Below are positions 5,942 through 22,325 of a DNA stretch of 46,850 nt, piece by piece. Below the pieces are notes generated by a model. It was given only the letters and a program-made list of their open reading frames with translations, was not told the origin of the DNA and searched no databases. Every line of letters begins with the position of its first letter. Positions within the stretch are counted from its first letter, which is position 1. The stretch lies in NCBI GenBank assembly GCA_016783945.1, contig JADHVP010000011.1:1-46850 (forward strand). The letters are read 5' to 3'. The position numbers and the translations under genes were made by a program. This stretch comes from Ignavibacteria bacterium (GTDB lineage: Bacteria > Bacteroidota > Ignavibacteria > Tepidaquicellales > Tepidaquicellaceae).

Positions 5942-7219
5942 GTGAATAAATATACATCAAAATTAATTCTTTTTATTTGTTTCATCCTCTCTCTCAGCAA
6001 TGTTTCTTCTGCACAGGTGAAGTTGCTTATCCCGATGGAACTCTCGCAAACGGATCATTTAAAAGCTTACGGAATTGCATACAGGCATTTACTTAACGGC
6101 AGGGAGCTTGATTGGTTGTTGAATTACCGCGGGGGAGCTTTTATGTTTGGTTACTCGTCCGAGCTTGAGGACGAATGCAAACAAAAAGGAGTTTCTTATG
6201 AGCTAATCGACGGAACGCAGACTGCTCAGGTATATGCAGATGTAAAGGATGAAAATAGTAACACTGATGTAATCAGGTTGGAGAAAGTTGCTAAGATAGC
6301 TGTTTACGTTCCCCCGAATGCACTTCCCTGGGATGATGCGGTAACGCTTGCACTCGAGTATGCTGAGATTCCTTACGAAAAGCTCTGGGATGAAGAAGTA
6401 TTAGAGGGAAAGCTAAAGGGTTACGACTGGCTTCATTTGCACCACGAAGATTTTACCGGGCAATATGGAAAGTTCTATACTGCGTTTAGATATTCAGACT
6501 GGTATATAGCTCAGCAGAAATTAAGCGAAGAGATGGCTTTGAAGCTTGGCTATAATAAGGTCTCACATCTAAAGCTTGATGTCGTTAAGCAAATACAGAA
6601 TTATGTTTCAAACGGTGGATTTCTTTTTACGATGTGTTCGGGAACTGATACATACGATATTGCCCTTGCTGTTCAGAATACAGATATATGTGATGTGATG
6701 TACGATGGAGACCCGCTTGATCCGCTTGCTAACGATAAACTCGATTACGATGAATGTCTTGTTTTCGAGAATTTTAAAATAGAGATGAATCCCTATGTTT
6801 ATGAATTTTCTGATATAGATATTACCGGTGATCTCGTAATAATGGGTGAAAGCCTTGATTATTTTAATCTCGTGGATTTTTCCGCAAAGTTTGACCCGGT
6901 GCCCACGATGCTTAACCAATGTCACACAGCATTGATAAAAGGATTTTTAGGGCAGACGTCAGGATTTAGAAAAGAGTTTTTAAAAAAGAACATAACTATC
7001 CTGGCTCTCAATGAAGAGACTGATTTTGTGAGATACGTTCACGGGAATTATGGCAGGGGAACGTATACTTTTTACTCCGGGCACGACCCGGAAGATTACC
7101 AGCATTTGGTGGGGGACCCTCCAACAGATTTAAGCAGGTTTAAGAATTCACCGGGTTACAGGTTGATATTAAACAATGTACTTTTTCCAGCAGCTAAAAA
7201 GAAGAAGTTGAAGACATAA
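5942..7219 (+). CDS. Conserved secreted protein; homologs often labelled 'asparagine synthetase B' but no synthetase motifs seen
   Basis: GTG start, signal peptide ending SSAQ, 'YGIAYRHLLNGRELDWLLNYRGGAFMF', 'YDWLHLHHEDFTGQYGKF', 'GGFLFTMCSGTDT' (GATase-like look). Confidence 0.65.
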   Translation: MNKYTSKLILFICFILSLSNVSSAQVKLLIPMELSQTDHLKAYGIAYRHLLNGRELDWLLNYRGGAFMFGYSSELEDECKQKGVSYELIDGTQTAQVYADVKDENSNTDVIRLEKVAKIAVYVPPNALPWDDAVTLALEYAEIPYEKLWDEEVLEGKLKGYDWLHLHHEDFTGQYGKFYTAFRYSDWYIAQQKLSEEMALKLGYNKVSHLKLDVVKQIQNYVSNGGFLFTMCSGTDTYDIALAVQNTDICDVMYDGDPLDPLANDKLDYDECLVFENFKIEMNPYVYEFSDIDITGDLVIMGESLDYFNLVDFSAKFDPVPTMLNQCHTALIKGFLGQTSGFRKEFLKKNITILALNEETDFVRYVHGNYGRGTYTFYSGHDPEDYQHLVGDPPTDLSRFKNSPGYRLILNNVLFPAAKKKKLKT

Positions 7220-8437: not shown

Positions 8438-8506
8438 CTTTAACTTAGTGTGAAAAAATCTAATCAAAAATATCACAATAATTCATCAGAAATTAAACAA
8501 TCGATA

Positions 8507-10111
8507 ATGTATACCAAAAATAATTTGAGAAATAGCAGAAATTTAATAGTCATGGTGTTAATCATGGTAATTTTGTCAGGATTTGGTTTTAATAAGCTTT
8601 TTTCTCAAACAAACGATGACGAACTGGATTTAGCATATTCATATCTTAATTCAGGTCAAACAGAATTAGCTACTGTAATTTTCGAGCGTCATATAGTTAA
8701 TAATCCTGAAGATACTAAGATATATTTACAGCTTGCATATATTCATTATATAAATAAAAACTATGATAAAGCTTATGAGTATTTTGATTATGTAAAAAAC
8801 AATTCATCAGATATTTCTGAAGTTGACAGAGCAAAACTTGAATTAGAAAACATAAAAAGTTTAAATGAAACTGATGAATTAAATAAAGCTTATGAATATT
8901 TAAACAATAAAGATTATGATAAGGCTATAACTTTGTTTGAAGAATACCTTGTAAAAAATCCAAATGATACCAAAGTCCATTTACAGTTAGGATATATCTA
9001 TTTTACCAAAAAAGATTATACAAAATCTTTAGATTATTTCAAGTATGTAGCTGAAAATTCGAGTAATGAATCAGAAGTTGCAAGTGCTAAAAAAGAAATT
9101 TCGAACATAAATAAAAATCTTGGAGTTACAGAGCAGATTGAAGGTACGATGACAGATGAAGATTTGAATCAAGCTTATTCTTTATTGAATAATGGTAAAT
9201 TAACAGAAGCAGCAAAGATTTTTAGACAGTATGCAAAAGAAAATCCGAAAGAAACCCAGATACATTTACAGCTTGCATATATTTATGATAAACAAAAAAA
9301 GTATAAATCTTCTTTGAAATATTTCGAATACGTTGAAAGAACATCAACAGATTACGATGAAATTGATGAATCAAGGAAAGCCATTTATATTTTAAATCAG
9401 ATGATACCATATCTTTCTACAACATCCTTTGATGTCTATTTCCACAATTTTTACGATACGCATCAGGAAAATTATATTTCAAACATAGTCGGTCATCTTA
9501 ATTTTAGAGTTGCAAGAGGTCTTTATACAGGACTTTATACCGATATTTATCTCGACAGCCGTTCAAAACCAGACAATATTTATAACGATAGGTTTGTCGA
9601 AGTTGGAGGATTCTGGAAATATTTACCTATCGACAATATTGTTTTTGAAATAAGAGCGGGCTATGTCAGGGAAATTGATTTTAAAAAGAACAGTTTCAAT
9701 TTTAAACCAATGCTATCTGGAGGATATAGATTTGGAAGTCCGGCTTTTTACGCAGGTAGAAAAACATCCAAGAGAGAATATGTTTTCATGGATCTTTATG
9801 GTACCGGACTTTACGATTACAAATTCAGAAACTTCTTCGGTCAGGTTTATTTGAAAGAAACATTGAGATACTTAACCGGGGGATATTCAAACATAGAGTT
9901 TTACTTAGGTCAGTTTGCACAGGGTGACAGCAAACAATTAAACTATAATAACTACGGGGAAATTATTGCTGGGGTGAGTTTCAAACCGAATCTAATGAAC
10001 TTCCCATCAATATTCGTAGAAGCAACAAATAAATTTTATTTCCTCGAAGATAGAGAGGATACTTTTCAAATTAAAGCAGGTTTTCAATTAATTTTTAATA
10101 CATCATTATGA
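8507..10111 (+). CDS. NfrA-like protein: three TPR-like repeats plus C-terminal outer-membrane beta-barrel-like domain
   Basis: Supplied ORF begins at 8450; ATG at 8507 fits a signal peptide (MYTKNNLRNSRNLIVMVLIMVILSGFGFNKLFSQ) and the sigma-54 site. Repeats 'AYSYLNSGQTELATVIFERHIVNNPEDTKIYLQLAYIHYINKNYDKAYEYFDYV' x3; barrel-like C-terminus. Confidence 0.75.
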   Translation: MYTKNNLRNSRNLIVMVLIMVILSGFGFNKLFSQTNDDELDLAYSYLNSGQTELATVIFERHIVNNPEDTKIYLQLAYIHYINKNYDKAYEYFDYVKNNSSDISEVDRAKLELENIKSLNETDELNKAYEYLNNKDYDKAITLFEEYLVKNPNDTKVHLQLGYIYFTKKDYTKSLDYFKYVAENSSNESEVASAKKEISNINKNLGVTEQIEGTMTDEDLNQAYSLLNNGKLTEAAKIFRQYAKENPKETQIHLQLAYIYDKQKKYKSSLKYFEYVERTSTDYDEIDESRKAIYILNQMIPYLSTTSFDVYFHNFYDTHQENYISNIVGHLNFRVARGLYTGLYTDIYLDSRSKPDNIYNDRFVEVGGFWKYLPIDNIVFEIRAGYVREIDFKKNSFNFKPMLSGGYRFGSPAFYAGRKTSKREYVFMDLYGTGLYDYKFRNFFGQVYLKETLRYLTGGYSNIEFYLGQFAQGDSKQLNYNNYGEIIAGVSFKPNLMNFPSIFVEATNKFYFLEDREDTFQIKAGFQLIFNTSL

Positions 10112-11055
10112 TATTCGATATATTTCACATCTTATTATGGGTAACAGCCATAATGCTTGTCGTAAGCGGTCTTGACGATTTTTATTTAGATCTAATTTAC
10201 TGGTTACGCAGGAGTAAGTACAAAAAAGGACTTCCTAATTTTTCTGAAATGAAAAAGAAGCCAGAAAGACCAATTGCAATTATGATAGGTGCCTGGCAGG
10301 AGCATAGGGTCATCGGCAGAACGTTAAGGAATGCATTAAGCAACATTGAGTATGCAAACTACAAAATTTTTATTGCCGTATATCCTAATGACCTTAAAAC
10401 TGTTAAAGTTGTAAGGGATTATGCGAGAAAAGATAAGAGAGTTATTTTATGTCTTAATCCGCAGGATGGTCCTACAACAAAAGCAGATAATTTAAACAAT
10501 ATGTATTCTTGTGTTAATGAATATGAAAAATCAAACGGTAACTTTGATGTCTTATTGATACACGATTCAGAAGATTTCATTCATCCATATTCTTTGAAAC
10601 TGTACAATTATATGATAATGTACAAAGGTCATTATGCTATTCAGATTCCGGTGATTCCAATAAAGAACAAAGCTGGAAAATTCTTCCACAGAACTTATTG
10701 CGATGCATTTGCCGAATTGCATACAAAAGATATGATCGTAAGACAATCAGTAGCTTCTTTCATACCATTTGCCGGTACAGGTATGGCATTTAATCGCAAG
10801 GCTTTCTATTATCTTGAATCACAGAGTAAAGAAATTCAGCCTGGTGAAACAACCTTCGTTGCACCAAAGCCTGAAGTAAAACCCAAAAAGGAAGTTGTAC
10901 ACGAAGAAGAGAATATTTATACCAGGAAACAAACGTTTGATGATTTACTTGAAAGTAAAGAAGAACATGTTGAAACAAAGAAAACTGTAAAAAGAACGAA
11001 AGAAGTTGTAAAAGAGATGATCGAAGATAAAGTTGAAGAAGAAATTCTTAGTTAA
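10108..11055 (+). CDS. NfrB-like glycosyltransferase (GT2), N-terminal half, with added charged tail
   Basis: N-terminal TM 'YLDLIYWLRR', 'IAIMIGAWQEHRVIGRTLRNAL', 'LLIHDSEDFIHPYSLKLYNY', 'FIPFAGTGMAFNRKAFYYLE'; homology appears to stop near aa 237, then a Glu/Lys-rich 78-aa tail. Lacks TED and QxxRW. Confidence 0.85.
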   Translation: MIFDIFHILLWVTAIMLVVSGLDDFYLDLIYWLRRSKYKKGLPNFSEMKKKPERPIAIMIGAWQEHRVIGRTLRNALSNIEYANYKIFIAVYPNDLKTVKVVRDYARKDKRVILCLNPQDGPTTKADNLNNMYSCVNEYEKSNGNFDVLLIHDSEDFIHPYSLKLYNYMIMYKGHYAIQIPVIPIKNKAGKFFHRTYCDAFAELHTKDMIVRQSVASFIPFAGTGMAFNRKAFYYLESQSKEIQPGETTFVAPKPEVKPKKEVVHEEENIYTRKQTFDDLLESKEEHVETKKTVKRTKEVVKEMIEDKVEEEILS

Positions 11056-11115
11056 ATAAGATGAAAATAAATTTTAATATTTTTTACATAAAGATTTTTA
11101 ATTAACAATAATAAA

Positions 11116-13890
11116 ATGACTAACACAAAAATTTCAAATCCCTCAATCACAGATACTCTTATTGAAATCATAAGGAAACAAGCTAAGGGTAATAACACTA
11201 CTGTTCTTGATAAGATCGATGATACAATAAATTGGGATGATATAGTTTACCCAATTAAAGAAAGAATAGAAGATTCTTTAATAGGAACGAGTAAGGATTA
11301 TGATCTCGAAACAATAGTTAAGTGTTTCGTCCTTCAAACAATATATGAATTGACGAACAAAGAATTGGCTGTCGAGATTACGGATAGAAAGAGCTTCCAA
11401 AAATTCCTTAACATGAAATACGGAGATACAATTCCTAAAGAAGATACACTATCTTTCTTCAAAGAATTATTAATTGAAGAGGATCTTTATGATGACATGT
11501 ACAATTCTTTTTATGAACAGTTGTTAGATTCGAATTTTCATTTATTGAAAAACGCAGAAAGAAAAGGTGTTACTAAATATCAAAGTGCTGATAAGAGAAG
11601 TGAGGAAAAATATACACAGTCATATTATGATTCCGGAATGGGGAAAGAAATTGAAAAAGATGAAGATATTCGCTATAAGCTGGGAGTACAGCATAGAGTG
11701 GATGATACAGATAAATTAATTGATGAAATCGAGTCTATAAATCTTGAAGATTCTTCTGGTGATGATAATGGCAATAATTTTGTTGATAAAAAAATCAATG
11801 AGATTGAAGAAAGAATAAAAATGCTATACGACAAAAAGACACAAAATGCTGGAATTTCTTCAGAAGATGATTCAGACGAAGTATCCGTTGGTGAAAAATT
11901 AAAGCAGGTTGATGATGAGATAAAAATGATAAATCATGATCCAGATGAAATATATGAAAGAACAGATAAGATCTATGATAAACTTCTTCAGATTGATGAA
12001 AAAATTGGAGAATTATATGATCTTCCAAAAGAGGATACAGAGCAAAAAGTTACGGAAGAAGAGACCGATAAAACTGAACAGTTAGATAAATCTGAAAAGT
12101 TATTAAATAAATTAACTGAAATTGATAATAGACTTGAGCAGCTTCATGATGAACCGGTACAAACGTCTGACGAAACACTCGAGTTAGAAGAAAAAGATGT
12201 TGAAAAAGAATCTGATACAAACGAGCTTTATGAAAAATTAACACAAATTGACCAGAGATTAAAAGAATTATATGAAAAGCCTTTAGAGGCTGAGGAGAAA
12301 ATCGAGACTGAAGAAAAAGTAATTGATGAATTGCCTGAAGAAGTTGTTAGTTCACAAGCTTCGGAAGTAGATGTAAAAGATGAAATTGAAAAGATTGATG
12401 AGATTATTGAGGAAGTAGATACAGAAAAAGCTGATGAAAGTGATAAAGGTGAGGTATATAAAAAGTTATTTGAATCATTCTATAGTCAGTTAGTTGATGC
12501 AAACATAGTTAAAGAAACTGAGAAAGATGTTGATGAACCAGAATTGAAAGATATTGATATAAGACCGGTTTACTCCAAGAGCGAATCAATAAGTCCTGAA
12601 GATAAAGAGGTTGAACAAGAAATTGAAGATGTAGTAAAAGAGGAAGAAACTGTTTTAGATGAAACCGAAAAAGTTTTAGAAAGCCAGGAATTCAAGAAAA
12701 GAAGTGAAGAGATTGATGAGAAAGTAAAAGAGATCGAAGATCATTATAAATTACTGTATGACAAAGAGGATTTAGAAGCAAAGATCGAAGAAGAATTAAA
12801 AGAAGAAAAGATAGAAGCCCCTGTTATCGAAGAAGAAGTTAAGGAAGAAAAGATTATAACTCCGGTAATTTTAGAGAAAATTGAAGAGAAAGTTGAAGAG
12901 GAATTACTCGAAGCGACGTTTAAGGAAGAAGAAGTTAAAGTTGAGCTTCCGGAAGAAATCAAAGAAGAAGCTCATATAGAAACTACAGAAGAAAGACTTA
13001 AGAAAATTGATGAAGAAATAAAAATGATTTATGATTCGAGTGTAAAAAAAGAAGTTGTTGAAGAAGAGCCGGTACTTAAGATGGTTAAGGAAGAGGAACC
13101 CGAACTAATGGAAACAGTTACGGAAGAAATTACAGAAGAAGTGGTTGAAGAGACAAAGACAATCGAAGTTGAGAAACCCGGTACTTTATTCATGCAGCCT
13201 TCGGCAATTGAAACCGAACCAGAAGTTAAAAAAACCAGAGATAATGAAATCGATCTTAAGAAAAAGAGAAAAGTACAGATTTTTAACGATTCAAATCTTA
13301 CAGAAGATTATGAACTCGGATTAAGGTTTTATAAATTAGGTTTCAAGACAGCTTTTGTAAACATGACTACTGATGCAAAAGATGGAACGATTTCCAGGAT
13401 TGCAACAGCGGAATATTTCCCGAATACATTCTGGGGAGCTGTAAAACAGAGATCAAGATGGATTGCCGGAATAGCGTTCCAGAATTGGAAGATTCATAAA
13501 TGGAAAGGTTCATTAAAGACAAAATATTTCTTGTTTCGTGATAGAAAATCTATAATCAGTGCTTTAGGAATATTGTTATCAAATATAGTTTTTGCTTATT
13601 TTGTAATTTATCTTCTAAGCATAACATTTAATTTCCAATTTTCCTTATCTGTTGTCGATAAGAGTTCTGTGTTATGGTATCTGATGCTTGCAACATTCTT
13701 CTTCATGGTTAGCAGATTAATTCATCGTTTTGCTTTCACTTACAATTGGTATGGATTCAAATACGCAATGTTTAGTATTGTAAGGCTGCCATTCGATAAC
13801 ATAATTAATATATTCGCTACAGCAAGGGCATTCAAAGTGTATAATACAAATAAAACGAAAGTGGTTTGGGATTCGACAGACCACTATTAA
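11116..13890 (+). CDS. Chimeric protein: IS5/DUF772-like transposase N-terminal domain, ~500-aa acidic repeat region, NfrB-like glycosyltransferase C-terminal half
   Basis: 'CFVLQTIYELTNKELAVEITDRKSFQKFLNMKYGDTIPKEDTLSFFKELL' resembles a DUF772 domain; from aa ~719 'VQIFNDSNLTEDYELGLRFYKLGFKTAFV...REYF-like AEYFPNTFWGAVKQRSRWIAGIAFQNW' plus TM segments is the GT C-half. Confidence 0.85.
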   Translation: MTNTKISNPSITDTLIEIIRKQAKGNNTTVLDKIDDTINWDDIVYPIKERIEDSLIGTSKDYDLETIVKCFVLQTIYELTNKELAVEITDRKSFQKFLNMKYGDTIPKEDTLSFFKELLIEEDLYDDMYNSFYEQLLDSNFHLLKNAERKGVTKYQSADKRSEEKYTQSYYDSGMGKEIEKDEDIRYKLGVQHRVDDTDKLIDEIESINLEDSSGDDNGNNFVDKKINEIEERIKMLYDKKTQNAGISSEDDSDEVSVGEKLKQVDDEIKMINHDPDEIYERTDKIYDKLLQIDEKIGELYDLPKEDTEQKVTEEETDKTEQLDKSEKLLNKLTEIDNRLEQLHDEPVQTSDETLELEEKDVEKESDTNELYEKLTQIDQRLKELYEKPLEAEEKIETEEKVIDELPEEVVSSQASEVDVKDEIEKIDEIIEEVDTEKADESDKGEVYKKLFESFYSQLVDANIVKETEKDVDEPELKDIDIRPVYSKSESISPEDKEVEQEIEDVVKEEETVLDETEKVLESQEFKKRSEEIDEKVKEIEDHYKLLYDKEDLEAKIEEELKEEKIEAPVIEEEVKEEKIITPVILEKIEEKVEEELLEATFKEEEVKVELPEEIKEEAHIETTEERLKKIDEEIKMIYDSSVKKEVVEEEPVLKMVKEEEPELMETVTEEITEEVVEETKTIEVEKPGTLFMQPSAIETEPEVKKTRDNEIDLKKKRKVQIFNDSNLTEDYELGLRFYKLGFKTAFVNMTTDAKDGTISRIATAEYFPNTFWGAVKQRSRWIAGIAFQNWKIHKWKGSLKTKYFLFRDRKSIISALGILLSNIVFAYFVIYLLSITFNFQFSLSVVDKSSVLWYLMLATFFFMVSRLIHRFAFTYNWYGFKYAMFSIVRLPFDNIINIFATARAFKVYNTNKTKVVWDSTDHY

Positions 13891-13915
13891 AAAATATAAA
13901 TAATGATGTATCCTT

Positions 13916-13944
13916 AAGTTTGCAGACGATATGTCTGCAAACTT
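13916..13944. terminator. Perfect hairpin after the glycosyltransferase operon
   Basis: AAGTTTGCAGAC-GATAT-GTCTGCAAACTT (12-bp stem); no strong U-tract. Confidence 0.6.
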
Positions 13945-14003
13945 ATCCCATTTTAAAAGAAAATTTTAGAGAAAAAAAATTAATTAAATTAAACTTACCC
14001 ACA

Positions 14004-16010
14004 ATGTTAAATCACTTCAAGTTTTTAAAAAGCTCTGCGATAATTGTATCGCAAATCTTGATACTTGTACTTCTTTTATCTTCGGTCGATGTGTTTGCAC
14101 AAAACAGACCAAAAGGACCGATAGATAGATATCAGTATAAGTTATTACCATCAATTATCCCACAATCGGACGATCCTTATATTGTTATTAAAGAGGATTT
14201 TTTATTAACTCTTAGGGATGGTATCAAAATGGATTGTTCAAAATTTTATCCAAACGTTCCCAATATATATCTGCCAGATGGATATCCGGTTGTAATAATG
14301 GTTCATGGATATGGTGACAGAAAAGAAACCTTAGAGCATTTTGCATTTGCTCAAGCTCAATATAATTATGTAGTTTATACATATAGTGTTAGAGGGCAGG
14401 GTACTTCAGAAGGTTTATCGAATCTAATCAGTATGATAGAAGCTGAGGATTTAATGGAATTAGTTGAATATGTAAAAGCGGATGTAGTAGGTTTGGATCC
14501 GACCAAGATCGCCATTATGGGTGGTTCACAGGGTGGAACTTTACCATACATGGCTGCCTGCAATGGAATGCAGGTCAATTCCATGATTTCAGCATTATCA
14601 TCTCCTAAGTTTGCAAGCAGCTGGATGGAAAACGGCTGTGTTAAAATGACTCTTCTTTGGTCAATAGAATATCCTCTGGATTCCGTCAGGTATACACCTA
14701 CTGTTGATAGAATGTCTGATTGGATTTACGCATCAGGAGTAAAATCTGATAAATGGGACAGCCTGGCGTATTATATGCCACTTGGCAGAGATTTTATGGA
14801 TAAAGTCGGGAATTGTCAAGTTCCGATATTGACTGAAAATTCATGGCAGGATTTCTTCTTCAATGCGAAGAATACCATCGAAACATTTCCTTTAGTTCAA
14901 TATCCAAACAGAGTTTATCTTGGTGCTGTTATGGGTCACGGCGGCGACACTTCTAATGCTGAGAACCAATGGCACATGAATTTCTTTAACGAATGGTTTT
15001 ACTATTATATTTGGGGAGTGGACAATAATTTGCCAAACAGACCGAAATATCATTATGCTCTTACAAAATATCCAAAGAATATAGTTAATATGTGGTCTTT
15101 TACTCATGACAGCTCTACTGTCTGGCCACCCGCAGGTGTTTCTGATGTCAAGTTTTATTTTAATCGAAATAAGTTAAAGTTAACTCCTTTAAAAAATAGT
15201 TCCGCATTTAAAAGATTAAGAAACAGAGTCCGTAGGAATTATTCTTTACAATCTGCTGTGTACGAAGAGTTTACAGGGAATACCTTCAACAGATATTTCA
15301 AAAAACGTCAATTGATATTTGAAACAGCACCAATAACAAATGAAGTCCAGGTTATTGGAACGCCAAAAGTACACCTTAAGTATTCAGCAACTGCTGATAT
15401 ATGTCAGTTCAACTTTCAATTGTATGAAGTGAAAGCAGACAATACTGTGAACTTCATTAACAGGATTAATTATACTGACAGGAATTATCAACCATCGAGC
15501 ATTCGAACTATTGTCATCGAAGGTTTAGCATTTGCTCATCAATTCACGGCAGGAAGTAAACTAAGAGTTGTTGTTACTAATTTAGATACAACACCAGACG
15601 ATTTTGATTTCTTAGCAACGAATCCTCATGTACTGCCGGTTATGACAAATAGCATTAATAAAATTTACCTGAGAGATACGTACATTGAATTGCCGTTAAG
15701 AGGATTTACATCTGATAATCAAATTGTAAAGAATGAGACCGAATCACCAGTTCTTCATCAGAATTATCCAAACCCGTTTAACCCGGTTACAAATATCAAA
15801 TTCGAATTACCCGTAAATTATAATGGCTTGGTAACTTTTAAGATTTTTGATATAACCGGAAGGGAAGTCGCGAAATTAATAAATCAGGATATGACGTCCG
15901 GCTCGCATAGTGTTACATGGGATGCAAGCAGTTTCGCAACCGGTGTTTATTTTTATAAATTATCAGCAGGAGAATTCTCCGAAGTAAAAAGAATGATATT
16001 CATAAAATAG
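14004..16010 (+). CDS. CocE/NonD (S15/X-Pro dipeptidyl-peptidase-like) hydrolase with T9SS type A sorting domain
   Basis: Supplied ORF starts 13866 (overlaps upstream gene); ATG at 14004 gives signal peptide. VHGYGDRKET, YSVRGQGTSEG, GGSQGG nucleophile elbow, PepX_C-like C-terminus, [17 protein letters not shown]. Confidence 0.88.
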   Translation: MLNHFKFLKSSAIIVSQILILVLLLSSVDVFAQNRPKGPIDRYQYKLLPSIIPQSDDPYIVIKEDFLLTLRDGIKMDCSKFYPNVPNIYLPDGYPVVIMVHGYGDRKETLEHFAFAQAQYNYVVYTYSVRGQGTSEGLSNLISMIEAEDLMELVEYVKADVVGLDPTKIAIMGGSQGGTLPYMAACNGMQVNSMISALSSPKFASSWMENGCVKMTLLWSIEYPLDSVRYTPTVDRMSDWIYASGVKSDKWDSLAYYMPLGRDFMDKVGNCQVPILTENSWQDFFFNAKNTIETFPLVQYPNRVYLGAVMGHGGDTSNAENQWHMNFFNEWFYYYIWGVDNNLPNRPKYHYALTKYPKNIVNMWSFTHDSSTVWPPAGVSDVKFYFNRNKLKLTPLKNSSAFKRLRNRVRRNYSLQSAVYEEFTGNTFNRYFKKRQLIFETAPITNEVQVIGTPKVHLKYSATADICQFNFQLYEVKADNTVNFINRINYTDRNYQPSSIRTIVIEGLAFAHQFTAGSKLRVVVTNLDTTPDDFDFLATNPHVLPVMTNSINKIYLRDTYIELPLRGFTSDNQIVKNETESPVLHQNYPNPFNPVTNIKFELPVNYNGLVTFKIFDITGREVAKLINQDMTSGSHSVTWDASSFATGVYFYKLSAGEFSEVKRMIFIK

Positions 16011-19533: not shown

Positions 19534-22325
19534 ATGAAAAAAATATTACTATTCTTAGTACTGCTCATAACAATGAGCGCCAATGCACAATGGGTGCCAT
19601 CTGACGGAGTGTATGGGGAAAAGTCCGATCTTTAATTACGTCAGGTGTTTACATTTTTGCAGGGACAGATAACTTCGGTGTTTTCGTCTCTTCAAACAAT
19701 GGTGCAAACTGGACACAAACTCCATTGAACAATAAAATAGTCAATGCGCTTGCTGTTAGCGGAGGGAACGTACTTGCAGGAACAACTGGAAGTGGTGTGT
19801 ATATTTCAACTAACAATGGAGTAAGCTGGACACAAACATCATTTAATTATAAAACTGTTTATTCAATTCTTGCTTCAGGTAATAATATTTATGCTGGAAC
19901 AACAAGAAGTGGTGTATATATTTCTACTGATAATGGAGCAAATTGGACACAGACTTCATTGAACAATAAATCTATTTTATCTTTATCCATTAGCGGAAAT
20001 AGTTTATATGCAGGAGCAAACTTAGGTGTTTATCTTTCAACTAATAATGGTAATAGCTGGACTAATATCGGTTTAAACTCACTTATTAACCGTTCTTTGT
20101 TAAACGTTGGAAGTTACTTATATTCTGCAACAGTCCATAGCGGTGTTTATTATACAACAAACAATGGTAATAGTTGGATTCAAACATCTTTGAATAATCA
20201 ATCAAGTTATTCACTTTTAAGTGTAGGAAATTCTATTTATGCTGGAACAAACAAAGGACTCTTTCAATCTACAAATAGTGGAACATCGTGGAATCTAACA
20301 CTCAATAATTCATCTATTCGTTCATTGACTAACAATGGAAATAATATTTTTGCAGGTGCGGAAAGGCAGGGTATCTATTTTTCTACCAATAGTGGTACAA
20401 CTTGGTCTCAAATTGGATTAAATAATTTAATTGTAAATTGTCTCGCTTTAAAAGGAAACAATCTTTTTTCAGGAACACTTTATCATGGCGTTTATGTCTC
20501 TACTAATAATGGTATCAAATGGACACAAACTTCATTAAACAATAAACATATTAGGGGTCTTACATCTTTTGGGAACAATATAATTACAGGTACAAATCAT
20601 GAAGTATATGTTTCTTCAAATGATGGAGTTGATTGGATACAAACAAATAATTTAGGAGGTTATTTGTGTTCTAACAACACAAATACTTTTTTGGGTACAA
20701 ATTCCACCGGGATTTATAAATCAACTAATGGTGGAATCAATTGGACACTATGTACAAGTAGTATTCATCCTTATATAATTGTTGCTCTCGGAAATAATAT
20801 TTATGCAAGTGATGTCTCTGGCTCATACTATTCAACTGATAATGGAAATAATTGGAGTTCTTTAGGGTTAGAAAATAAAGATGTAACCTCATTTGCAAAT
20901 ATTGGAAATTATATATTTGCAGGTACTTGGGGAGATGGTGTTTTGTTCTCAACCAATAATGGTGTAAATTGGACGCAGACTGCATTGAATAAAACTGTTC
21001 GTTCACTTTTTTCAAGCGGGAATATTTTATTCGCAGGTAGTCAAAGTAATGGTATTTATATATCAACCAATAATGGAGCTAGTTGGATACAGAAAAATGA
21101 GGGTTTTGGTTTAATTATACCAACAAGTAATGCATTGATTATTTCGAACAATTATATATTCGCAGGAACATTTCATTATTCTGTTTGGCGAAGACACCTT
21201 TCAGAGATTATTTCTGGAAATCACGACTTCTCTGCCGGTCCATTTATAGATTTCCCAGAAGTGTTTATAAAAGATTCAAGCTATCATATTAAAGCAAGGA
21301 TTACAAACGAAGGCAGGGAACCTGAGACAAATGTCCCGATAAGATTCTTAATAAATGGTACTCAAGTAGGATACTATTTACGAACTCTTCCAGCAGGAGG
21401 TATCGACACTGTCGATTTCACCTGGACACCTCATACTGCAGGAGACTTTAACGTTGCGATTGCATCTGCTTTGCCTACGGATATTAACCGTTCTAACGAT
21501 ACGGTTAAGACAGACGTCAGAGTGTATTCTTCACCTGCTTTACCAATATTCTGTGATGATTTTTCAGGAGGTACAGCAAACTGGACAATAACTAACGATG
21601 GAGGGACTTGTGTCTGGCAGACGTACTCTCCTCCTTATCCGAATGTTTACTCACTTCCTGCAACATCATCGGGTGCAGTCTTATCTGCCGATGCGGATGA
21701 TTGCGGTTCAGGAACAACTTTACTTTCGACTGCTACGATAATAGAGAATGTAGACTGCTCTTTGTTTGAGAACATTTATCTTGAATTCGACAATGACTGG
21801 AATGCGATAGATGAACAGGATTCTGCTATTGTCGAGGTAAGCTATGATGGTGGTACGAGTTGGTCTTCAGTAGTTGCATGGGGTGGAACTGATATAAGAA
21901 ATACACAGGAGAGTTATACTCTCCCCGGTGCTGATGCAAATCCAAGTGTCAGGATAAGATTCAGGTCAATACAGCCCGGTTGGGATTGGTGGTGGACAAT
22001 AGATAATGTATGTCTCAAGGGATTTCCTGTAACAGGTCTAACACAAAACAGTAAGATTCCGACTAAATATGCTTTAATGCAGAACTACCCCAATCCATTT
22101 AATCCCACAACAAAAATAAGATTCGATCTTCCAAAGTCAACACAAGCGAAACTGATTATCTACGACATACTTGGAAGGGAAGTTACTACACTCGTAAATG
22201 AAAAATTAAATGCAGGGAGTTACGAGGTTGAGTGGAATGGGAGTAGTTATCCGAGCGGTGTGTATTTTTATAGATTGATTACTAAAGATTTTTCGCAAAC
22301 TAAAAAGATGTTGATGATAAAATAG
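19534..22325 (+). pseudogene. T9SS-sorted BNR/Ycf48-like beta-propeller protein with one-base frameshift near 19616 (ORF track starts at 19725)
   Basis: ATG at 19534 gives MKKILLFLVLLITMSANAQWVPSDGVYGEKSDL*; the adjacent frame reads ..KVRSLITSGVYIFAGTDNFGVFVSSNNGANWTQTPLNNKIVNAL.., contiguous with the 19725 ORF. Many ~40-aa 'AGTxxSGVYISTNNGxxWTQTSLNNK' repeats, then CARDB/MAM/T9SS cassette. Confidence 0.78.

Follow-up and report, generated by a model that had tools for sequence, protein, structure and literature searches.

The window, a stretch of 46,850 nucleotides of Ignavibacteria DNA (contig JADHVP010000011.1, positions 1–46,850), carries two adjacent open reading frames (ORFs) that hold between them the parts of an NfrB-like glycosyltransferase (GT). 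ORF1 (10108–11055) encodes 315 residues and ORF2 (11116–13890) encodes 924 residues; all the parts described here between 8450 and 16010 lie on the plus strand. Residues 1–237 of ORF1 (10108–10818) match the NF008411 and PF13641 models and make up the N-half of a family 2 glycosyltransferase (GT2), with the first transmembrane (TM) helix, the nucleotide-sugar-binding half, the acidic motif HDSED, and the sequence GTGMAFNRKAF. Residues 723–924 of ORF2 (13282–13887) match NF008411 and PF13632 and make up the C-half, with NLTED, KQRSRW, and the C-terminal membrane helices. A first-pass annotation, made from the letters of the window alone, had given these coordinates for the two ORFs and had placed the N-half in ORF1 and the C-half in ORF2, as found here.

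The NfrB and GT2 profiles are partitioned between ORF1 and ORF2 with neither gap nor overlap. The curated NfrB model NF008411 is matched at positions 9–251 in ORF1 and 252–470 in ORF2, and the best-matching family model, NF011305, at 3–235 and 228–453, respectively. PF13632 is divided into positions 2–85 and 85–196, and PF13641 into 2–175 and 181–230. Judged by these matches, ORF1 and ORF2 are complementary pieces of one GT2. Profile matches and alignment show that the GT2 signature motifs DxD, TED, and QxxRW are all present, but distributed over two chains. An NfrB-type enzyme has its GT domain on one polypeptide; here, and in 14 genomes altogether, it occupies two ORFs. No MshEN domain for cyclic di-GMP (c-di-GMP) was found in ORF1 or ORF2 with Pfam and NCBIfam, in agreement with the first-pass annotation, and the protein stops after the membrane helices.

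The two halves are separated by an insert that spans 10819–13281, slightly longer than the 10819–13269 first given for it. It begins with the charged 78-residue tail of ORF1 (10819–11052), seen in its composition and in the tail alignment, and continues with a spacer of 60 nt (11056–11115; 6–59 nt in relatives), and the several in-frame stops claimed between the ORFs are three TAA and one TGA. Residues 1–150 of ORF2 (11116–11565) resemble the N-terminal domain of IS5 transposases, another claim that held, with matches to PF05598 (DUF772) at residues 61–125 (E=1.3e-8) and to the IS5-like model NF033581 (E=4e-7). The DDE catalytic domain was not found in ORF2, which has only the DUF772 N-terminal domain. 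An acidic coiled linker follows (11566–13281), with six repeats of the KLxxIDxxIKxLYD type, against a mean of 0.0065 in 2000 shuffles, and a VYKKLFESFY motif at 12454. The residues D, E, K, and R make up 45% of the linker, and the ORF2 head as a whole carries a net charge of −113. Charged repeats are thus present as described, but their composition is dominated by Glu and is not the balanced Glu/Lys mixture that had been suggested.

ORF1 was searched in 59 relatives and the neighborhoods of the matches were read. In other genera of the same family, ORF1 likewise ends without the C-half and the next gene encodes it. A class-wide search, with an unsplit orthologue as the query against 391 genomes of the class, found the gene in 48 genomes, split in 14 and unsplit in 34. 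The 14 genomes with the identical split, which answer a proposal in the first-pass annotation to survey related genomes, comprise eight genera, all in family f1. The unsplit gene is found in two genomes of genus g16, also of family f1, in 15 of family f2, and in 17 of four other families. None of the 14 split genomes was found to hold an unsplit copy, and a phylum-wide sample of 396 genomes yielded no further split case. The N-half and C-half copies in split genomes are adjacent and about 1:1 in number.

In a tree of the concatenated halves, all 20 split rows fall into a single clade (94/86), whose sister is genus g16 (96/93). The unsplit orthologue has 446 residues in f2 and 490 residues in g16. 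The loop at the break is about 9 residues in f2, carries a 45-residue insert in g16, and is the place where the gene is divided in the split clade. Directly upstream of the GT gene, in split, g16, and f2 loci alike, lies the same gene for a TPR protein (8450–10111 in the window), identified by TPR Pfam matches and a candidate outer-membrane partner in an NfrA-like position. Since this gene is common to split and unsplit loci, the loci are orthologous, and the split pair took over the position of the single gene. The split clade fits one division event, in an ancestor that belonged to family f1.

The two ORFs behave as two genes. ORF1 and ORF2 are adjacent and on the same strand in 18 loci, separated by 6–60 nt where an ATG start was read, and most loci provide ORF2 with an ATG of its own. 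Both ORFs share one frame in the window, as had been noted, but this is incidental, for all three relative frames occur among the loci. Neither stop read-through nor a fixed frameshift can therefore be the mechanism, and both were rejected. A split intein was also rejected, with no intein domain found and TM and SPOR segments at the junction.

Several genomes hold a second, shorter paralogous split-GT pair (L101, L102, L103, L105, and L107), in which the split is kept. The shorter pair has TM helices and no upstream TPR gene, and SPOR and DUF772 were not detected in it. In genome G003, both split pairs (L098 and L100) show an unresolved base or gap at almost the same position of the C-half, which probably reflects incomplete assembly between the paralogues.

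The ratio of nonsynonymous to synonymous substitution rates (dN/dS) between close relatives is 0.008–0.038 for the N-half and 0.013–0.033 for the C-half; no value was obtained for some pairs because of saturation at synonymous sites. Unsplit orthologues give 0.02–0.03, the same level as both split halves. The ORF1 tail and the ORF2 head have values of 0.07–0.25 where measurable, which indicates purifying selection, but their rate of evolution clearly exceeds that of the GT halves. In the alignment, the N-half rows retain HD[SA]ED, and the C-half rows retain TED and Q[RK]SRW. Both halves are functional as judged by this selection. The divergences of the two halves are correlated (r=0.94), though shared ancestry alone also gives a high r.

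DxD, TED, and QxxRW are described as active-site signatures of E. coli NfrB, and changes at D169, D267, and W330 in its GT domain each abolish function (PMC8669469). Because the corresponding motifs lie here on two chains, one would expect from the family that neither half works by itself.

The model of the unsplit orthologue L111 has a predicted local distance difference test score (pLDDT) of 79.7 and a predicted template modeling score (pTM) of 0.80. The break maps to the coil of residues 240–252 in this model, between the helix of residues 230–239 and the TED helix of residues 253–262, and outside strands and helices. As modeled, the split falls in a surface loop that links the GTGMxF...LE helix to the TED helix. 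The best fold matches of the model in the PDB are BcsA and hyaluronan synthases (HAS); a profile search of PDB sequences gave nothing at E<=0.01, so that these relatives were reached by fold comparison only.

The extensions on both proteins vary among the lineages. ORF1 of most relatives extends into a linker that bears an (N/D)xTxYxDDPFxSLN-like motif, then a TM helix, and then a SPOR domain (PF05036; E=2.4e-8 in L042, 3.1e-4 in L049, weaker in others). The TM helix and SPOR domain could not be seen from the window sequence alone, since the window ORF1 has neither; a domain search for PF05036 found no SPOR in it, and no homologue of the relatives' ORF1 tail was found elsewhere in the window genome, a metagenome-assembled genome (MAG) that is 78% complete. 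The window genome has lost the TM-SPOR tail of ORF1 and has an expanded coiled linker in ORF2.

The ORF2 heads of relatives contain a coiled IxEIExRIKxLYEKK motif and an LYKKLF(E/D)SFY motif. The DUF772-like domain is found on the ORF2 heads of genera g1, g3, g4, g8, g11, and g14, and was not detected in ORF2 of g7 or in the shorter paralogues. By its distribution, the transposase-like piece is a conserved ORF2 domain in most split genera and not a fresh insertion. IS5-type transposase genes that lie outside the ORF2s in genomes G004 and G046 match the DUF772-like domain as a query. Given these matches and the DUF772-like head itself, it is reasonable to suppose that ORF2 owes its start to an insertion of the IS5 type in the loop.

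We consider it quite probable that the products of ORF1 and ORF2 are the subunits of a single membrane-embedded, NfrB-like GT2, which is probably an exopolysaccharide synthase that works with the TPR protein encoded upstream. The ancestral gene would have been divided once, at the loop before the TED helix, and both parts kept as adjacent co-oriented genes. The N-half, with donor binding and the acidic motif, and the C-half, with the TED general base, QxxRW, and the transmembrane channel helices, would associate after translation to rebuild one GT-A active site at the cytoplasmic face of the membrane. From knowledge of the family, the first helix of ORF1 would put the N-half in the cytoplasm. 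The second TM helix of ORF1 in relatives would lead to a periplasmic SPOR domain, which suggests a link to the cell wall, and the upstream TPR protein is the likely export partner. Assembly may be helped or controlled by the tails, which are the TM-SPOR part in the ORF1 of relatives and, in ORF2, the head with its DUF772-like domain and acidic coils. Reassembly through the charged and coiled segments, as the first-pass annotation imagined it for a split enzyme, is plausible.

The alternative offered there was a recently disrupted gene, with an insertion sequence (IS) followed by decay in this genome only. The IS5-like domain between the halves and the missing TM-SPOR tail of the window genome would fit it. 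The same break across eight genera, however, and the purifying selection on both halves (dN/dS about 0.02) contradict a recent disruption; the DDE domain was not found, and both ORFs are open. A contiguous ORF in related genomes together with decay at this locus, by which a simple disruption was to be recognized, is not what the survey shows: contiguous orthologues are confined to outgroup lineages, and decay is absent here. We regard recent disruption as very improbable, and the split enzyme is strongly supported by the eight-genus split, the strong selection on both halves, and the finding of no intact copy in the split genomes. It is just as improbable that the two ORFs yield one protein in the end, whether through read-through of the stops, a frameshift, trans-splicing, or something like an intein. 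The shared frame in the window would permit it, yet relatives use all three relative frames, four in-frame stops separate the ORFs of the window, the domain searches turned up no intein, an ATG belonging to ORF2 is present in most loci, and selection acts at the protein level on the segments that separate the halves.

It is unlikely, though less so, that the halves are independent proteins without a joint enzyme and with jobs other than glycosyl transfer, such as a SPOR nucleotide-sugar sensor and a membrane channel. Several observations weigh against the two-subunit enzyme, and one of them favors such independence, as do the large and lineage-variable tails. In genome G004, contig C129 (L147:2187–4755) holds a complete ORF2 with the C-half, preceded by a 372-residue ORF without the GT N-half, which contains a coiled motif, NNQRNGN-type repeats, a DDPF motif, a TM helix, and a SPOR-like tail. 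The sole N-half found in that genome is on another contig, and it is possible that the N-half is used in trans or that the C129 locus has decayed. Against independence stand the catalytic motifs retained on both halves, conservation as tight as that of unsplit enzymes, the adjacent copies in about equal number, and the correlated divergence with the limit given above. A further point on the contrary side is that all the split loci come from MAGs, which would also fit an artefact of assembly or binning. The same architecture is nevertheless found in independent MAGs of different studies, several of them with the locus on contigs of 0.3–1.2 Mb, and an artefact is hardly credible. An AlphaFold prediction of the window read through as one chain (10291–13887, stops as Ser, 13 rows) reached a pLDDT of only 43.9 and a pTM of 0.30; it is counted with the contrary points, and is uninformative either way.

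The two-subunit enzyme can tentatively be taken further, to a version that we think possible but would not bet on. The pair would be an obligate two-subunit GT-A synthase, with a SPOR subunit tied to the cell wall in relatives and a second subunit built from a domesticated transposase domain and a coiled linker. Assembly would be a regulated switch that replaces the control by c-di-GMP and MshEN, and would itself be controlled by the state of the cell wall or by partners.

The closest named family for both halves is E. coli NfrB, a c-di-GMP-activated GT2 of the nfrBA-ybcH operon. Like NfrB, the pair has the DxD, TED, and QxxRW motifs and membrane helices. The operon of an NfrB-type enzyme includes an NfrA-like protein with TPR and an outer-membrane pore; here a TPR gene, for a candidate partner, lies next to the pair. 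Unlike NfrB, which is one polypeptide with a C-terminal MshEN, it consists of two polypeptides without MshEN and with new SPOR or DUF772-like and coiled tails. The unsplit orthologues of f2 and g16 are about 55–63% identical to the window halves and have the same upstream neighbor and the same motifs, but their gene is contiguous. BcsA and the hyaluronan synthases, processive GT2 enzymes and the nearest solved folds to the unsplit orthologue, have a single-chain catalytic domain. The head of ORF2 matches the N-terminal DUF772 domain of IS5-family transposases; in contrast to these, ORF2 lacks the DDE domain, is fused to the C-half of a GT, and holds a position conserved across genera.

Alg13/Alg14 and the bacterial EpsE/EpsF are GT-B enzymes that are split between two domains. 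These split MurG-like glycosyltransferases are natural enzymes of two obligate subunits, one of which is membrane-anchoring (PMC4973528). The present pair differs from their arrangement of MurG N- and C-terminal parts: by its GT2 family matches and the BcsA/HAS-like fold of the unsplit orthologue, it is cut within one GT-A catalytic domain. The literature searched holds no account of a GT-A catalytic domain that is naturally split internally, which is weak evidence, as most subscription journals lie outside it. To our knowledge, GT-A synthases of the BcsA/HAS/NfrB type are regarded as having their catalytic domain on a single chain. A general base and a donor-binding acidic motif on different proteins would mean that evolution can divide the GT-A fold at a single loop. 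Efforts to split such enzymes would find a natural template in the pair, and assembly of the subunits could control polymer synthesis. The intermediates are preserved, from no linker through the 45-residue linker to the split, and the route from one gene to two is directly testable. The pair would also exemplify the capture of a transposase domain into a subunit of an enzyme.

The conserved downstream neighbor of the pair is an S15/CocE-type peptidase with a type IX secretion system (T9SS) sorting tail (13866–16010). Upstream, the gene at 5942–7219 is without a Pfam or NCBIfam match and has 68–77% identity to its counterparts in relatives' loci. Farther along the window, a large repetitive ORF (19725–22325) contains a 117-bp tandem repeat of 2.1 copies (19775–20019) and terminates in a T9SS-type sorting-like tail.

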